A stretch of 35,459 bases of DNA from Chloroflexota bacterium (GTDB taxonomy: Bacteria; Chloroflexota; Dehalococcoidia; Lucifugimonadales; Lucifugimonadaceae): contig JABIHL010000146.1 of the NCBI GenBank assembly GCA_018649665.1, positions 1 through 35,459 on the forward strand, in the 5' to 3' direction. Below, in pieces: positions 25,499-35,459 of this stretch. The first letter of the stretch is position 1; each line of letters begins with the position of its first letter. The notes beneath the pieces were generated by a model. It saw only the letters and a list, made by a program, of their open reading frames with translations. It did not search any database and was not told the origin of the DNA. Position numbers and translations under genes: made by a program.

Positions 25499-27067
25499 AT
25501 GAGATTCGCCATCCTCGGCATTTCGCACGAGACCAACACCTTTTCGAAGGTTCCAGCAACTTACGAAGAATTCGAGAAGGCGACTATCGCCCGCGGACAA
25601 GAAATTGTCGATCTCTACGCCGAATCTCAATACACCATCTCGGGCTATCTCCAGGGTGCCGAAGAACTCGGATTCGAAGCCGTGCCGCTGATGTACGCGA
25701 ACACGGGCCCTATCGGAACCATCACGAAAGACGCCTACGACCGTCTCTCCAGCGAAATGCATCAACTACTCCGCGATGAAGGCCCGTGGGACGGCGTCTT
25801 AATCAGTAACCATGGAGCAGCGGTTTCGGAAGAATTTCCTGACATGGACGCTGAATTCACTCGCGTCGTTCGAGAAATTGTCGGACCCGATGTACCAGTT
25901 GGCGTAACGCTCGACATGCACGCCAATATTTCGAAAGACACCGTAGCCAATACCGACGTTTGCATCGTCTGGCGAACCTGCCCGCACCTCGACACCAAGC
26001 TGCGGGGTCGCAAAACAGCCGAACTCATCTATCGAACTGCCCTGGGCGAAATCAAGCCTACCCAGTTCATCGAAATGCCTCCGATGCTCGTAAACATCGT
26101 CAAGCAGTTCACAGGCCAAGAGCCAATGCTGAGCCTCGTCGACGAATGTGTCGCAGCCAACGAAATCGAAAACGTGCTCGACACATCGATCGCCGAAGGC
26201 TACCCATACGCCGACGTCGACGAAATGGGAATGTCATGGATCACGATCACCGATGGCGACCCTGAACTCGCTGAGAAGACTTCGAAAGACCTTGCAGCCG
26301 CAGCTTGGACCAGGCGAATCGATCTCAACAAGCCCGTTGCCAGCATCACCGACGCCCTAACTCAGGCTGAAGAGCTTTACGTTGGGCCTAAACCTGAAGG
26401 CGTTGAAAACTTCATGCCAAGCGACGGTTCTGCCCTTGCTGAGCCCGAGAAGAGCGAACATTCCCATTTGGGACCGATCGTTCTAATGGACGTTGGAGAT
26501 AACATCGGCGGAGGATCTTCCGCCGACTCGACTCATATTCTCAAGGTCGCAAAAGAGATGGGCGTGACCGGATATCTGCAAAGCCTCTACGATCCTGAAG
26601 CGGTCGAAGCGTGCGTTGTCGCAGGTATTGGCGCCGAGTTGGCTCTTGATGTCGGCGGCAAAACCGACGACATGCACGGCGAGCCGGTTCACATTGTCGG
26701 CACGGTGTCCGTAATCGACGATGGGCCATACGAAGAGACTCGCCCAACTCACGGTGGCTATCGCTTCTACGACGATGGAAAGCGTGTGATATTCAACACG
26801 GTCGATGGAATGACAATTCTTTTGACATCGGCACGAAGCGGAAATACGGCTCGAGCACAGATGTACTCAATGGGCATCAATCCTGAAGATTACCGAGTAG
26901 TAGTTGCCAAGGGCGTTAGCTCTCCACGACCTGCCTACCAGCCGATTGCCGCCGAAATCATCATCGTGAACAGTCCTGGCGTGACCTCTGCCGACCTCGA
27001 TACGTTCGAGTTCAAGAGTCGCCGAGTCCCCCTCTACCCATTCGAAGAGCCTGTTTACCCAGCGTAG
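25499..27067 (+). CDS. M81 family (MlrC-like) metallopeptidase, copy 1
   Basis: RFAILGISHETNTFS, GAAVSEEFPDMDAEF, LDMHANISKDTVANTDVCIVWRTCPHLDTKLRGRKTAEL, DVGDNIGGGSSADSTHIL. Confidence 0.93.
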   Translation: MRFAILGISHETNTFSKVPATYEEFEKATIARGQEIVDLYAESQYTISGYLQGAEELGFEAVPLMYANTGPIGTITKDAYDRLSSEMHQLLRDEGPWDGVLISNHGAAVSEEFPDMDAEFTRVVREIVGPDVPVGVTLDMHANISKDTVANTDVCIVWRTCPHLDTKLRGRKTAELIYRTALGEIKPTQFIEMPPMLVNIVKQFTGQEPMLSLVDECVAANEIENVLDTSIAEGYPYADVDEMGMSWITITDGDPELAEKTSKDLAAAAWTRRIDLNKPVASITDALTQAEELYVGPKPEGVENFMPSDGSALAEPEKSEHSHLGPIVLMDVGDNIGGGSSADSTHILKVAKEMGVTGYLQSLYDPEAVEACVVAGIGAELALDVGGKTDDMHGEPVHIVGTVSVIDDGPYEETRPTHGGYRFYDDGKRVIFNTVDGMTILLTSARSGNTARAQMYSMGINPEDYRVVVAKGVSSPRPAYQPIAAEIIIVNSPGVTSADLDTFEFKSRRVPLYPFEEPVYPA

Positions 27068-27355: not shown

Positions 27356-28927
27356 ATGAAATTTGCCATTCTCGGAATCTCCCACGAAACCAACACATTC
27401 TCGGTCGTCCCAGCGACATACGAAGAATTTGAAAAAAGTAAGCTCCTGCGCAGGCAGGAGATACTCGATCATTACGCAACTTCCGATCACACCATCGCAG
27501 GCTATCTTCAGGGCGGTGAAGAACTCGGATTCGATGCTGTGCCGCTAATGCACGCCCGAACAGGCCCCATTGGAACAATCACCAAGGACGCCTACGACCG
27601 GCTTTCTAGCGAGATGCTGGGCATGCTCGCTGACGAAGGTCCGTGGGACGGAGTTCTGATCGCCAATCACGGTGCTGCCGTATCAGAAGAATTTCCCGAT
27701 ATGGACGCCGAGTTCACAAGGCAAGTCAGAGAAGTCGTTGGGCCTGACGTTCCAGTAGGTATCACGCTCGACATGCACGCCAATATCTCAAAAGACACCG
27801 TCGCCAACACCGACGTCTGCATCGTCTGGCGAACATGTCCGCACCTCGACACCAAGCTGCGGGGTCGCAAAACTGCCGAACTCATCTACCGAACCGCACT
27901 GGGCGAAATCAAACCCGTCCAGTTCATCGAAATGCCCCCGATGCTTGTAAACATCGTCAAACAGTTCACAGGCCAAGAGCCGATGCTGGGCCTTGTCGAC
28001 GAGTGCGTCGCTGCGAATGAAATCGAAAACGTGCTCGACACGTCGATCGCCGAAGGCTACCCATACGCCGACGTTGAAGAAATGGGGATGTCGTGGATCA
28101 CGATCACCGACGGCGACGCTGAACTCGCTGAGAAGACTTCGAAAGACATGGCAGCCAGCGCATGGACCAAACGAATCGATCTCAACGAACCGGTCTCTAG
28201 CATCTCAGACGCCCTAAAACAGGCTGAAGAACGGTACGTCGGGCCCAAGCCTGAAGGCGTTGAAAACTTCATGCCAACCGACGGTTCTGCTCTAGCAGCA
28301 CCCGAGAAGAGCGATCACTCGCATCTTGGGCCAATCGTCCTAATGGACGTTGGAGACAACATTGGCGGTGGATCGTCCGCAGACTCTACCCACATCCTAA
28401 AAGTCGCACAGGAAATGGGAATAGAACGATACCTACAAAGCCTTTACGATCCTGAATCTGTCGAAGCATGTGTTGATGCCGGAGTAGGAGCGGAACTTGC
28501 ACTCGACGTAGGCGGCAAGACCGACGATATGCACGGCGAGCCCATTCATGTTGTCGGCACAGTAGCCGTTATTGATGATGGACCATACGAAGAAACACGA
28601 CCCACTCACGGTGGAGGTCGGTTCTACGACGACGGGCAGCGAGTGATCTTCAACACCGTCGACGGCATGACGATTTTGCTGACTTCAAAACGAAGCGGAA
28701 ATACGGCTCGAGCGCAAATGTATTCAGCGGGCATCAACCCTGAAGATTACCGAGTGGTGGTCGCCAAGGGCGTGAGTTCTCCACGACCCGCCTACCAGCC
28801 GATTGCCGCCGAAATCATCCTCGTGAACAGTCCCGGCGTAACCTCTGCCGATCTCGATACGTTCGAATTCAAGAGTCGCAGAATCCCGCTCTACCCATTC
28901 GAAGAACCCGTTTACCCGGCTGAATAG
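27356..28927 (+). CDS. M81 family (MlrC-like) metallopeptidase, copy 2
   Basis: Highly similar to 25499-27067 along its whole length. Confidence 0.93.
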   Translation: MKFAILGISHETNTFSVVPATYEEFEKSKLLRRQEILDHYATSDHTIAGYLQGGEELGFDAVPLMHARTGPIGTITKDAYDRLSSEMLGMLADEGPWDGVLIANHGAAVSEEFPDMDAEFTRQVREVVGPDVPVGITLDMHANISKDTVANTDVCIVWRTCPHLDTKLRGRKTAELIYRTALGEIKPVQFIEMPPMLVNIVKQFTGQEPMLGLVDECVAANEIENVLDTSIAEGYPYADVEEMGMSWITITDGDAELAEKTSKDMAASAWTKRIDLNEPVSSISDALKQAEERYVGPKPEGVENFMPTDGSALAAPEKSDHSHLGPIVLMDVGDNIGGGSSADSTHILKVAQEMGIERYLQSLYDPESVEACVDAGVGAELALDVGGKTDDMHGEPIHVVGTVAVIDDGPYEETRPTHGGGRFYDDGQRVIFNTVDGMTILLTSKRSGNTARAQMYSAGINPEDYRVVVAKGVSSPRPAYQPIAAEIILVNSPGVTSADLDTFEFKSRRIPLYPFEEPVYPAE

Positions 28928-29088: not shown

Positions 29089-29754
29089 ATGAAACCTTGG
29101 ATTACCGTTGGCGAAGCGCTTTCGCCCGATGGCACACGACTCGAACTTGTGGAGCACGATGGTGAATACATCATCAGAGCCGACGATCTACCCCTGATGT
29201 CGACCCGCATGCATTTCTCCGAAATCGAGCTCGCCCGTCTCGTCTGCAACAAACTTCGATCTGGCGCCAAAGTCATGATCGGCGGACTCGGACTCGGCTA
29301 TACCCTCCGTGCGGCTCTCGACCTCCTTCCCAAAGACGGCATCGCTGTCCAAGTCGAACTCGTTCCTGAAGTGGTTGAATGGAACAAAGGCCCGCTCGCT
29401 CCGTTCGCGGGTAATCCACTCGACGACAAACGATCTGAACTAGTTCAAGGCGACGTTGCGAAAGCCATTCGTGGCGCACGCAATGAGTACGATTCGATCA
29501 TGCTCGATGTCGACAACGGCCCATCACCCCTCGTCAGCGAACGCAACGCCTGGCTGTACACCGATCACGGTCTGCAAGCGATCCGAGGCGCACTAAAAAA
29601 CGGCGGGAGAGTCGCCATATGGTCGGCAGATGACGAGCCTCGGTTCATCTCTAGAATGAAGCGAAACGGATTCCGAGCCGAAAACCACCTCATTCAAGCG
29701 CACAAAGGAAAAGGTGGAATTCGTCACGTGATATTCACCGGTCGCAAAACATAG
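29089..29754 (+). CDS. Spermidine synthase-like methyltransferase-fold protein
   Basis: MIGGLGLGYTLRAAL, VELVPEVVEWNK, DSIMLDVDNGPSPLV. Confidence 0.85.
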   Translation: MKPWITVGEALSPDGTRLELVEHDGEYIIRADDLPLMSTRMHFSEIELARLVCNKLRSGAKVMIGGLGLGYTLRAALDLLPKDGIAVQVELVPEVVEWNKGPLAPFAGNPLDDKRSELVQGDVAKAIRGARNEYDSIMLDVDNGPSPLVSERNAWLYTDHGLQAIRGALKNGGRVAIWSADDEPRFISRMKRNGFRAENHLIQAHKGKGGIRHVIFTGRKT

Positions 29755-29815: not shown

Positions 29816-30526
29816 TTGACCTCAAGAAAAGAACGACGACAAAACAAGAACAATCCGCCCAAGAGCACAGGCCAGAAAAACTGGATGATGATGGGTGGAG
29901 TTGCAGTCGTAGTTATCGCCATAGCGATCGTCGCGTTCGTAGCTCTCTCGCCAGAGGACACGATCACCCTAGAGAACACTGACGATGCCGTTCTGGCGTC
30001 GAGCGGCTCGCTGATTGGAGATCCGAACGCACCGGTAACCCTTGTCGAATTCGGGGACTTTCAGTGATCGCACTGCGCAAATTTTGCCCTCGGGACAGGG
30101 CAACAGATTATTCGTGAGTACGTAGACACCGGTCGTGTAAACATTCTCTACAGACACTTTCCGTTCATCGGCGACGAATCGTGGCGGGCAGCTGAAGCAT
30201 CGGAATGCGCTGGTGAGCAAGATCGTTTCAAGGTCTATCAGGAAACCGTTTTTGTGAACTGGAACGAGACAAACAAAGGTGGCTACTCGGACGCCAATCT
30301 TCGTACTTTTGGCGAAATGACTGGTCTGTTAATGAATCAGTTCGACGAGTGTATGGGCACCAACAAGTATCTTCCCAAAGTCGAATCTGATCGACAAGCC
30401 GCCCTCGACGTAGGCGTGAATTCCACACCCACATTCTTCTTGAACGGTGAAAATATCACCGGACCCGACGATTACGGCTACTACCGAGTCAAGATCGAAG
30501 AGGCTCTAGCCAAAGTAGGCGGCTAG
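29816..30526 (+). CDS. Putative selenoprotein: membrane-anchored DsbA/thioredoxin-fold oxidoreductase with UxxC active site (in-frame TGA at 30065-30067)
   Basis: One frame reads ...PVTLVEFGDFQ-[TGA]-SHCANFALGTGQQIIREYVDTGRVNILYRHFPFIGDESWRAAEASECAGEQDRFKVYQETVF...GVNSTPTFFLNGENITGPDDYGYYRVKIEEALAKVGG; the TGA sits at the first Cys of CxxC, and no other stop occurs up to 30524. Confidence 0.82.
30084..30103 (+). promoter_or_regulatory. Candidate bacterial SECIS hairpin
   Basis: TTGCCCT (30084-30090) - CGGGAC loop - AGGGCAA (30097-30103); 7-bp perfect stem, G at loop position 2, loop begins 24 nt after the TGA. Confidence 0.65.
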
Positions 30527-30529
30527 ACG

Positions 30530-31030
30530 TTGGATAACGGTTCGGATTCAGAGAGCGAAGTGGCTGCAATTGTTGGTCGACCATCAAAGTTGTGGCTGTT
30601 CATTGCGCTACTCGGAATCACCGGACTCGCAGTGACAACTTATCTGACTTCGAACGCGCTCGCGCACACTGAAGTCGGATGCAGCATAAGCGGCTGCAAC
30701 ACCGTGCTCGGCAGCAAGTGGTCGAAGATTTTCGGCATCCCTGTATCAGCGTTTGGAATGGCGACCTACGCAATCATCATGCTCGGGGCATTCCACGCGT
30801 ATCAGTCGCCAATCGACGATCTGAGGGGGCGACGTGTAGTCGCTCTGACGGCTGGCATCGGCGTACTAGCGTCGATCTACCTCACCACTATCGAATTCTT
30901 CGTAATCAAAGCCGCCTGCCAATACTGCATCACTTCGGCAGTGCTGGTCGTGGTCGTGGCAGTAACGTTGATAATCGCTGCACGAAAAGAAGGCCCATTG
31001 TGGGCGGCGATTCGAAGGCGCCCCGACTAA
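30530..31030 (+). CDS. Vitamin K epoxide reductase (VKOR) family protein, DsbB analogue
   Basis: GCSISGCNTVLGSKWSKIFGIPVSAFGMATYAIIMLG and AACQYCITSA motifs; TTG start 3 nt after the upstream stop. Confidence 0.9.
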   Translation: MDNGSDSESEVAAIVGRPSKLWLFIALLGITGLAVTTYLTSNALAHTEVGCSISGCNTVLGSKWSKIFGIPVSAFGMATYAIIMLGAFHAYQSPIDDLRGRRVVALTAGIGVLASIYLTTIEFFVIKAACQYCITSAVLVVVVAVTLIIAARKEGPLWAAIRRRPD

Positions 31031-31692: not shown

Positions 31693-33372
31693 CTACTTCC
31701 AAATACCGTCTTTGGCGGCTCGATGCTGAGAAATGTGAGCATGATCGCCTTTGAGACGTTTTGCGAGCACGCGTGGATCGACCGGCCAGGGTAATACCTC
31801 GGCACGCTCCGCCCACTCGAAATACGCTTTCTCCAGTGCCTTTGCGCGATCCTTTTCGCCGTCGATCAGATCGTTTTGCTCGGTTCGGTCATCGCTAATG
31901 TTGTACAGCTCCCACGACTTGTCCCACTCAGCAACCAATTTCCAGTCGCCGACGCGAATTCCTCGGTTGCCTTCGTGCTCGATTGTAATCGGCTGCTCGC
32001 GCTTCAACTCCCGCCCCTTCAAAGCAGGAAGGAAGCTCTCACCTTCTAACGGAGTTATCTCGGTGTCGTGATGCTCTTTCGGATACTGCGCACCGGCAAT
32101 GTCGTAGCAGGTCGCCGAAATATCGATGATATGCATCGGATTATTCAGGATGTTCGACTTCTCGATTCCGTCGGGCCAATGAACGATGAACGGAGTTGAA
32201 ATTCCGCCTTCATGAACCCAACGCTTAAACAATCGGAACGGCGCGTCCGAGACGTTCGCCCACGGCAGCTCGACCGCCTGGAATGTAGTGTCCGGACCTG
32301 GCCGTAGCTCAGGAATATCGCCCACACGAACTGGCTCGCCATCGAGAGTTGTCGACGATGCCCACTGCGAAGGATCCGGCCAGTCAGAATCCTCTTGAAA
32401 CAATTCGGCGCAACCCCCGTTGTCCGACAAAAACATGATGACCGTGTTCTCGAATTCGCCCGCCTTCTTCACCGAATCCACGATGCGCCCTACAGTACGG
32501 TCGACCTGTTCGATCATGGCGCAATAGGTCGCCATCCGTATGTCTTCATATTCCTTGTTCTGAACGTCGTCCCAATCGGGTGAATCAGAATCTCGGGGTG
32601 AAATCTCCCACTTATCGTCGACTACTCCGAGCCCTTTTTGCTGTTCATGTCGAGAGGTACGAATCGCGTCATAGCCAGCCATGTAATTGCCTTCGTACTT
32701 CACGATGTCGTCTTCCCATGCGTGAAGCGGCCAGTGTGGCGCGGTGAACGCCACGTACTGGAAGAATGGCATGCCCATTTCGACTGACTCTTCGATCTGA
32801 TTCACCGCGTGATCACCAATGGCGTCGGTCATGTGAAAATCATTGGTCTCGACATCTATCAAAACGTCTTCGAGAATCAGTGATTTGGGATTCCAGAACG
32901 AATCAGCCGCGTTCAACAGACCGAATGAACGGTCGAATCCTCGCTGCTTCGGCAAAGGGTGCTTTTTATCACCGAGAATCCAATTGTCCCGGTCCCGATT
33001 GTCCCAGCTTCCTGAAACGTGCCACTTGCCCGAAATCATCGTGCGATACCCGGCAGTCTTCATCACCTCAGCGATAGTGACGCAGCCTTCTCGCAAGTAA
33101 CCTTGGTAGGAGGGAACTCCCAAATCGGTTGTCATTTGACCGATTCCGGCCTGATGAGGATGCAGCCCCGTCAACAACGCCGCGCGGGAAGGACAGCACC
33201 TTGCGCCGTTATACATTTGCGTAAAACGAAGGCCGTTGTAACCAAGGGCATCGATGTTCGGCGTGCTGATCTCACCGCCGTAACAACCAAGATCTGAATA
33301 GCCGAGATCATCGACCATCATCACAATGATGTTTGGTTTTTTTGTGGCTTCCGGTGCTTTGCTTTCAGGCAT
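31693..33372 (-). CDS. Arylsulfatase-type sulfatase
   Basis: PNIIVMMVDDLGYSDLGCYGGEI...TPNIDALGYNGLRFTQMYNGARCCPSRAALLTGLHPHQAGIG; C-x-P-S-R formylglycine motif. Confidence 0.95.
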   Translation of the reverse strand: MPESKAPEATKKPNIIVMMVDDLGYSDLGCYGGEISTPNIDALGYNGLRFTQMYNGARCCPSRAALLTGLHPHQAGIGQMTTDLGVPSYQGYLREGCVTIAEVMKTAGYRTMISGKWHVSGSWDNRDRDNWILGDKKHPLPKQRGFDRSFGLLNAADSFWNPKSLILEDVLIDVETNDFHMTDAIGDHAVNQIEESVEMGMPFFQYVAFTAPHWPLHAWEDDIVKYEGNYMAGYDAIRTSRHEQQKGLGVVDDKWEISPRDSDSPDWDDVQNKEYEDIRMATYCAMIEQVDRTVGRIVDSVKKAGEFENTVIMFLSDNGGCAELFQEDSDWPDPSQWASSTTLDGEPVRVGDIPELRPGPDTTFQAVELPWANVSDAPFRLFKRWVHEGGISTPFIVHWPDGIEKSNILNNPMHIIDISATCYDIAGAQYPKEHHDTEITPLEGESFLPALKGRELKREQPITIEHEGNRGIRVGDWKLVAEWDKSWELYNISDDRTEQNDLIDGEKDRAKALEKAYFEWAERAEVLPWPVDPRVLAKRLKGDHAHISQHRAAKDGIWK

Positions 33373-34517: not shown

Positions 34518-35459
34518 TCACCGCGGCGGTTTCTCGTACGTCGCGGCGCTGGTTCGTGGTGAGTTCGGCCAAGGACGGTTCCAGCTTTCGTAGCCGAACG
34601 TTGGATCTTGCGACATATCGCCGTTCTGAGCCAATCGATCATCCATCGAGCCTTCGATAGAAGCCATCAGTTCCTGCGTAAGCTCTATCTCAAGCCGCTG
34701 AACAATGTCGGCAAACTCTGGATTTCCGAACAGATTTACCTGCTCTTGCGGATCGTTCAGCATGTCGAACAACAACGTCTCGCCAGTTCGATATTTGTGC
34801 AGCTTATAGCGACCGTCAAAGTTCATCCAGCCATCACCCAATAAGCCAAAAATGTTCTCTCGACCCGATTCACCCGGCATTCCGTCACCCGGAAGCGGCT
34901 GAGCGTCATACCACGCAGGCTGCTCGATTCCAGCCCAGCTGAGCATGGTCGCAGTCACATCACGAAGCTCGACTAGCCCTTCTTGAACCTGACCCCCTTC
35001 GATACCCGGGCCCATCGCAATCATCGGCACCCGGATCGCCGATTCGTAGAACGATGCCTTGCCGATCAAATTGTGATCGCCAAGATAGTCGCCATGATCC
35101 GAAGCCAGCACGACGTACGTGTTTTCGAGCAACCCTTTGTTGCGGAGCGAATCGAGAATGGCACCGACTTCGAAATCGATCTGCTGAACGAGTCCGGAGT
35201 AGTGCTTACGAACAGTGTGCTTGGTCTCGTCAGGGAACTCGGAGTAGTCGACCCCGTTCCAAGGTCGCTTGTTGCCGTCGACGTTGCCTTTGCGCAGTTG
35301 AGGCGTGTGACCCGGCACTTCGGGAGCGGCCTCGGGAATCTTCGATTCGTCGATGCCTTCCAAGAACCGCTCGTCAGGGTCGTAAGGGCAATGTGGACCA
35401 GGGAATCCGACCATCATTGCGAACGGCTGGTCGGACCCGTAATCATCGATAAATTTCAC
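34518..35459 (-). CDS. Sulfatase, partial (5' end beyond the window)
   Basis: PFAMMVGFPGPHCPYDPDERF, NTYVVLASDHGDYLGDHNLIGKASFYESAIRVPMIAMGPG; open at the window edge. Confidence 0.9.
   Translation of the reverse strand: MKFIDDYGSDQPFAMMVGFPGPHCPYDPDERFLEGIDESKIPEAAPEVPGHTPQLRKGNVDGNKRPWNGVDYSEFPDETKHTVRKHYSGLVQQIDFEVGAILDSLRNKGLLENTYVVLASDHGDYLGDHNLIGKASFYESAIRVPMIAMGPGIEGGQVQEGLVELRDVTATMLSWAGIEQPAWYDAQPLPGDGMPGESGRENIFGLLGDGWMNFDGRYKLHKYRTGETLLFDMLNDPQEQVNLFGNPEFADIVQRLEIELTQELMASIEGSMDDRLAQNGDMSQDPTFGYESWNRPWPNSPRTSAATYEKPPR

Follow-up and report, generated by a model that had tools for sequence, protein, structure and literature searches.

A predicted selenocysteine-containing DsbA-family oxidoreductase encoded beside a VKOR-family membrane protein in an uncultured Chloroflexota genus

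Does a TGA triplet within a DsbA-like reading frame end a short protein, or is it read as selenocysteine (Sec)? The question is posed by a locus in the window (the whole stretch of DNA that was analysed, 35,459 nucleotides), which belongs to an assembly of 2.65 Mb that is 86% complete and divided into 180 contigs. On the plus strand, positions 29816-30526 contain 236 codons followed by TAG, and the sole break in the frame is the TGA at 30065-30067. Standard gene calling yields two pieces, as the first-pass annotation had anticipated. Its proposal that the two form one frame split by a single TGA agrees with matches to Pfam families Thioredoxin_4 (PF13462, E = 3e-32, residues 65-223) and DSBA (PF01323, E = 1.9e-10, residues 75-220), both of which exceed their cut-offs and span the TGA. 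The in-frame TGA is real, but the position given for it, 30067, is only its last base. With TGA read as U, the joined product contains ...VTLVEFGDFQ-U-SHC-ANFALGTGQQIIREYV...GVNSTPTFFLNG..., and the features of the gene are as follows.

29816-30526, plus strand: predicted gene for a Sec-containing DsbA-family oxidoreductase, 236 amino acids, TTG start, TAG stop (Pfam, orthologues and AlphaFold model)
29882-29947, plus strand: predicted N-terminal membrane anchor, approximately residues 23-44, without a lipobox cysteine (hydrophobic stretch in the translation)
30065-30067, plus strand: UGA codon, putative Sec84, which opens the active-site motif U-S-H-C
30074-30076, plus strand: TGC codon, resolving Cys87 of the UxxC motif (alignment)
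30425-30430, plus strand: Thr204-Pro205, expected to form the cis-Pro loop opposite the active site

Of the 14 loci of the genus, 13 have TTG at the position that corresponds to the start codon. Among 1211 TGA triplets in the window, 62 are bridged by 40 open codons on each side; an open frame alone is therefore weak evidence, and the case rests on homology. When all TGAs of the window were ranked by codon usage, that of the DsbA gene came fifth. What takes it beyond chance is its coincidence with the column of a catalytic cysteine, its retention in 13 further genomes of the genus, and the conserved hairpin after it.

The identification of the product as a DsbA-family protein, made at first from the translation, is confirmed by the two Pfam matches, the UxxC motif, Thr204-Pro205 and the predicted structure. 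The columns of U84-S-H-C87 and T204-P205 are invariant in the alignment, the latter being presumably the cis-Pro loop of the DsbA/thioredoxin fold. Also invariant are C131 and C179, which align with cysteine residues of Wolbachia alpha-DsbA1. The AlphaFold model (mean pLDDT 76; low for the first 62 residues, about 90 for most of the domain) has a DsbA fold with a helical insertion, and Sec84 is placed just before the first helix. The nearest solved structures found by Foldseek, with E-values from 1e-11 to 2e-11, are BdbD of Bacillus subtilis (E = 1e-11, TM-score 0.83 on the target) and Wolbachia alpha-DsbA1. These share the fold, the position of the CxxC motif and the cis-Pro loop, but their active sites contain cysteine rather than Sec and the sequence identity is 26%. 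The hydrophobic stretch near residues 23-44 suggests that the protein is anchored in the membrane.

DsbA matches were found in 37 of 100 related genomes. An orthologue is present in the genome of the window and in 13 of the 18 others that belong to its genus (62-92% identity outside its own genome), and all 14 loci have TGA at the same codon. The remaining five genomes of the genus possess selB with no detectable copy of the DsbA gene, owing to incompleteness or loss. In more distant genomes the active-site codon is TGA or TGC, and the column, which the first-pass annotation had proposed to inspect in homologues for Cys or TGA, holds 21 TGA and 12 Cys codons over 33 loci; these 21 TGA loci were read at the column itself, while other TGA matches rest on the stop count alone. 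Among the 100 relatives, selB is found in each of the 24 genomes whose match bears TGA, and none of the matches in five genomes without selB has an internal stop (Fisher p = 0.003 for the association of selB with a TGA-bearing match, not corrected for relatedness). The tree of Sec and Cys forms requires at least four changes, but its deep branches are weak, and the branches with good support call for no more than two. A related genus of the same family has small genomes without selB (g6: G023, G033, G042 and G050, 1.3-1.4 Mb), and three of these, which are among the five just mentioned, encode the Cys form of the same protein together with its membrane-protein neighbour, described below.

The codon for Cys87 itself reads TGA in one relative, L036 (G004:C46:156201-156890), giving the apparent motif U-P-V-U. 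This is the only UxxU among the matches listed from the 100 relatives and 394 genomes of the class. Its second UGA is 14 nucleotides from the hairpin loop, below the model limit of 16, and the adjoining VKOR gene is frameshifted, so that a second Sec is no likelier than decay or error, and the double-Sec motif was not accepted.

These comparisons bear on two trivial explanations of the TGA. If it were a genuine stop, ending a short protein and leaving the 3′ part dead, the division of the gene into two pieces by standard gene calling would be correct. The same codon is nevertheless TGA in 14 loci of the genus, the hairpin is conserved, and the remaining catalytic features are all kept. Moreover, the pairs for which dN/dS could be computed on the 3′ side of the TGA give values of 0.07-0.24, which excludes a dead 3′ half. 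The scattered disruptions that the first-pass annotation had associated with a pseudogene do not occur in the homologues, and we regard a pseudogene as highly improbable. The other explanation, that a Cys codon was turned into TGA by an error of sequencing or assembly, might be encouraged by the fragmentation of the assembly into 180 contigs. It is refuted by the presence of the same TGA and hairpin in independently assembled genomes of other species, including SI036_bin77, casp40-mb.264 and bin.216; these read TGA, not TGC or TGT, at that codon, and the probability left to an error is negligible.

Bacterial Sec insertion calls for a SECIS element, which was expected just after the TGA and was found there:

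30084-30103, plus strand: SECIS-type hairpin inside the reading frame, with the loop CGGGAC on a 7-bp stem, TTGCCCT/AGGGCAA

The published bSECIS model specifies a loop of 3-9 nucleotides, a stem of 4-16 bp, G in one of the first two loop positions, 16-37 nucleotides from UGA to loop, and a minimum free energy of -7.5 kcal/mol or lower (PMC13188914). The hairpin lies within every one of these limits, having a 6-nucleotide loop with G at position 2, a UGA-to-loop distance of 23 nucleotides and a free energy of -10.0 kcal/mol. No shuffled sequence was equally stable (z = -3.1). In 17 TGA sequences, 99.2% of hairpin cells are paired and three of the seven pairs show compensatory changes; the covariation score was matched by none of 500 shuffles, slid registers came nowhere near it, and RNAalifold recovers the same helix unaided. 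The stem of L052 illustrates the pattern, having gone from TCGCCCT/AGGGCGA to TCTTCCT/AGGAAGA with both sides changed together. Three more distant TGA loci (L053, L054 and L056) have another stem and retain CGGG in the loop. The 12 Cys homologues retain just one to five of the seven stem pairs, and the hairpin is absent from them. Within the genus, the Leu codon and two Gly codons of the hairpin are each represented by one single codon; over the whole 3′ part, synonymous differences affect 0.66-0.81 of sites in most pairs of the genus, which is near saturation. A search of Rfam at the gathering threshold reported tRNA alone in the window and is uninformative on bSECIS elements.

The machinery for Sec, the absence of which from the host had been named as a possible objection, is encoded by the host genome: SelA (529 bits), full-length SelB (a 625-codon frame), SelD, and tRNA-Sec with the anticodon UCA. 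The selD gene (L013, G000:C168:19179-20105) likewise has a TGA in frame, at locus base 1531. This TGA occupies the Cys/Sec site usual for SelD (CAG-U-AGK) and has after it a hairpin with the stem CTTGCCC/GGGTAAG, so that selD is a second selenoprotein gene of this genome.

It might be supposed that UGA has been reassigned throughout the genome to another amino acid, or is read through without selenium, given that, of 22 ORFs examined in the window, just one is closed by TGA. Around selA, however, TGA terminates 4 of 14 long ORFs, and neither selA nor selB has an internal TGA; UGA is therefore not a general sense codon. The tRNA-Trp found in the genome has the anticodon CCA, and the confinement of internal stops to genomes with selB, together with the SECIS-type hairpin of the TGA loci, speaks against reassignment as well, making it a most improbable reading. 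In sum, the proposal that TGA 30065-30067 encodes Sec, put forward at first from the sequence, is strongly supported by the Sec machinery, the SECIS-type hairpin, the TGA/Cys column and the low 3′ dN/dS. From these lines of comparative evidence, the product is very probably a thiol-disulfide oxidoreductase of the DsbA family, anchored in the membrane and located outside the cytoplasm, with Sec, inserted with the aid of SelB and the hairpin, in place of the first cysteine of CxxC.

The class of Sec-DsbA proteins of the UxxC type has been on record since 2005, and the present gene adds a member, in keeping with the initial remark that the class might not be new. Earlier reports describe nine DsbA-like selenoprotein sequences in Sargasso Sea data (PMC1088965), DsbA-like selenoproteins in bacterial genomes (PMC1794560), and 63 sequences of DsbA 1, with UxxC, in the GOS data (PMC2398784); two DsbA-like selenoproteins are on record from Asgard archaea (PMC11227280). 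Like the marine metagenome proteins, called DsbA 1 or DsbA-like protein form 1, the present protein matches PF01323 above the cut-off, has UxxC with Sec first and a bacterial SECIS element, and has Cys homologues. That family is computed, mostly from metagenome reads, and was compared by its description rather than by sequence; the parts of those reports that were available mention neither Chloroflexota DsbA selenoproteins nor VKOR. The best NCBIfam match is NF041057 (Rcas_1661 family thioredoxin-like (seleno)lipoprotein; 130.8 bits, E = 6e-38), which includes Sec and Cys forms, but the score is below the curated cut-off of 190, and the present protein has a predicted membrane anchor and no lipobox cysteine. 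The NF041057 family is listed as DsbG-like (PMC13188914). Nothing on point was found in the open-access literature for SAR202 with selenocysteine, or for DsbA, selenoprotein and VKOR together. What is newly seen here is a Sec-DsbA in a little-described lineage of Chloroflexota, with a conserved VKOR neighbour.

The surroundings of the gene suggest what the protein may do.

29089-29754, plus strand: methyltransferase-like gene, 221 amino acids, upstream neighbour (named by reading only)
30530-31030, plus strand: VKOR-family membrane protein gene, likely redox partner, 166 amino acids, with C51/C56 and C130-x-x-C133

The VKOR gene starts three bases after the DsbA gene, and its product matches PF07884 (E = 8e-24, 84.7 bits against a cut-off of 27.5) with both cysteine pairs present. 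This neighbour, which the first-pass annotation did not mention, follows the DsbA gene in every one of the 14 loci of the genus and in several distant relatives, beside Sec and Cys forms alike; the available flanks of L053, L054 and L056, distant loci in which the TGA-bearing DsbA has the motif UPHC, gave no VKOR match. The methyltransferase-like gene is also upstream in 14 of 14 loci (74-98% identical outside the genome of the window). Elsewhere in the window, two adjoining, very similar genes at 25499-27067 and 27356-28927 (522 and 523 amino acids) appear to be a tandem duplication and resemble MlrC-type proteins by reading, and two sulfatase-like genes, named by reading only, are on the minus strand near the DsbA-VKOR pair at 31693-33372 and 34518-35459.

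DsbA proteins are re-oxidised by DsbB or VKOR, from which electrons pass to quinone (PMC11208910), and DsbA of Mycobacterium tuberculosis binds a VKOR-derived peptide (PMC3792642). Given these precedents and the occurrence of VKOR after DsbA in every locus of the genus, the most likely role of the gene is in a disulfide-exchange couple of Sec-DsbA and VKOR, as gene order suggests. SelB would insert Sec at the UGA, aided by the hairpin directly downstream; Sec84 would take the place of the first, nucleophilic cysteine to give UxxC, and may form a selenenylsulfide with Cys87 that is exchanged with substrates among the secreted proteins; DsbA may then be re-oxidised by the adjacent VKOR, with electrons passing to quinone. 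The DsbA-VKOR pair of Actinobacteria such as M. tuberculosis likewise consists of an anchored DsbA with a VKOR membrane partner, but it contains no selenium, and the corresponding partnership in the present genus is deduced from gene order.

A thiol-disulfide enzyme normally becomes more reducing with Sec, which lowers the redox potential of the active site and is not obviously suited to a strong oxidase, so that either direction of electron flow is possible. The Sec-DsbA might accordingly serve mainly in disulfide reduction, isomerisation or peroxide handling rather than in VKOR-driven oxidation, a role to which the Thr that precedes the cis-Pro also points; gene neighbours, moreover, are no proof of partnership. 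We consider such a role the less likely one, since VKOR adjoins the gene in the whole genus and in relatives with the Cys form, and since BdbD, which is known as an oxidase, is among the closest folds. The presence of VKOR beside Cys forms also means that VKOR alone does not explain the use of Sec by the couple.

Because gene callers split genes of this kind, the oxidative-folding enzymes of the lineage are missed. The same DsbA-VKOR pair occurs with Sec in genomes that have selB and with Cys in a related genus without it, a clean natural comparison in which it can be asked what a DsbA protein gains from selenium. Our tentative view, held at somewhat less than even confidence, is that, across this uncultured Chloroflexota genus, a quinone-linked disulfide-forming couple of Sec-DsbA and VKOR may have selenium at its catalytic centre; if so, protein oxidation outside the cytoplasm would rely on selenium.
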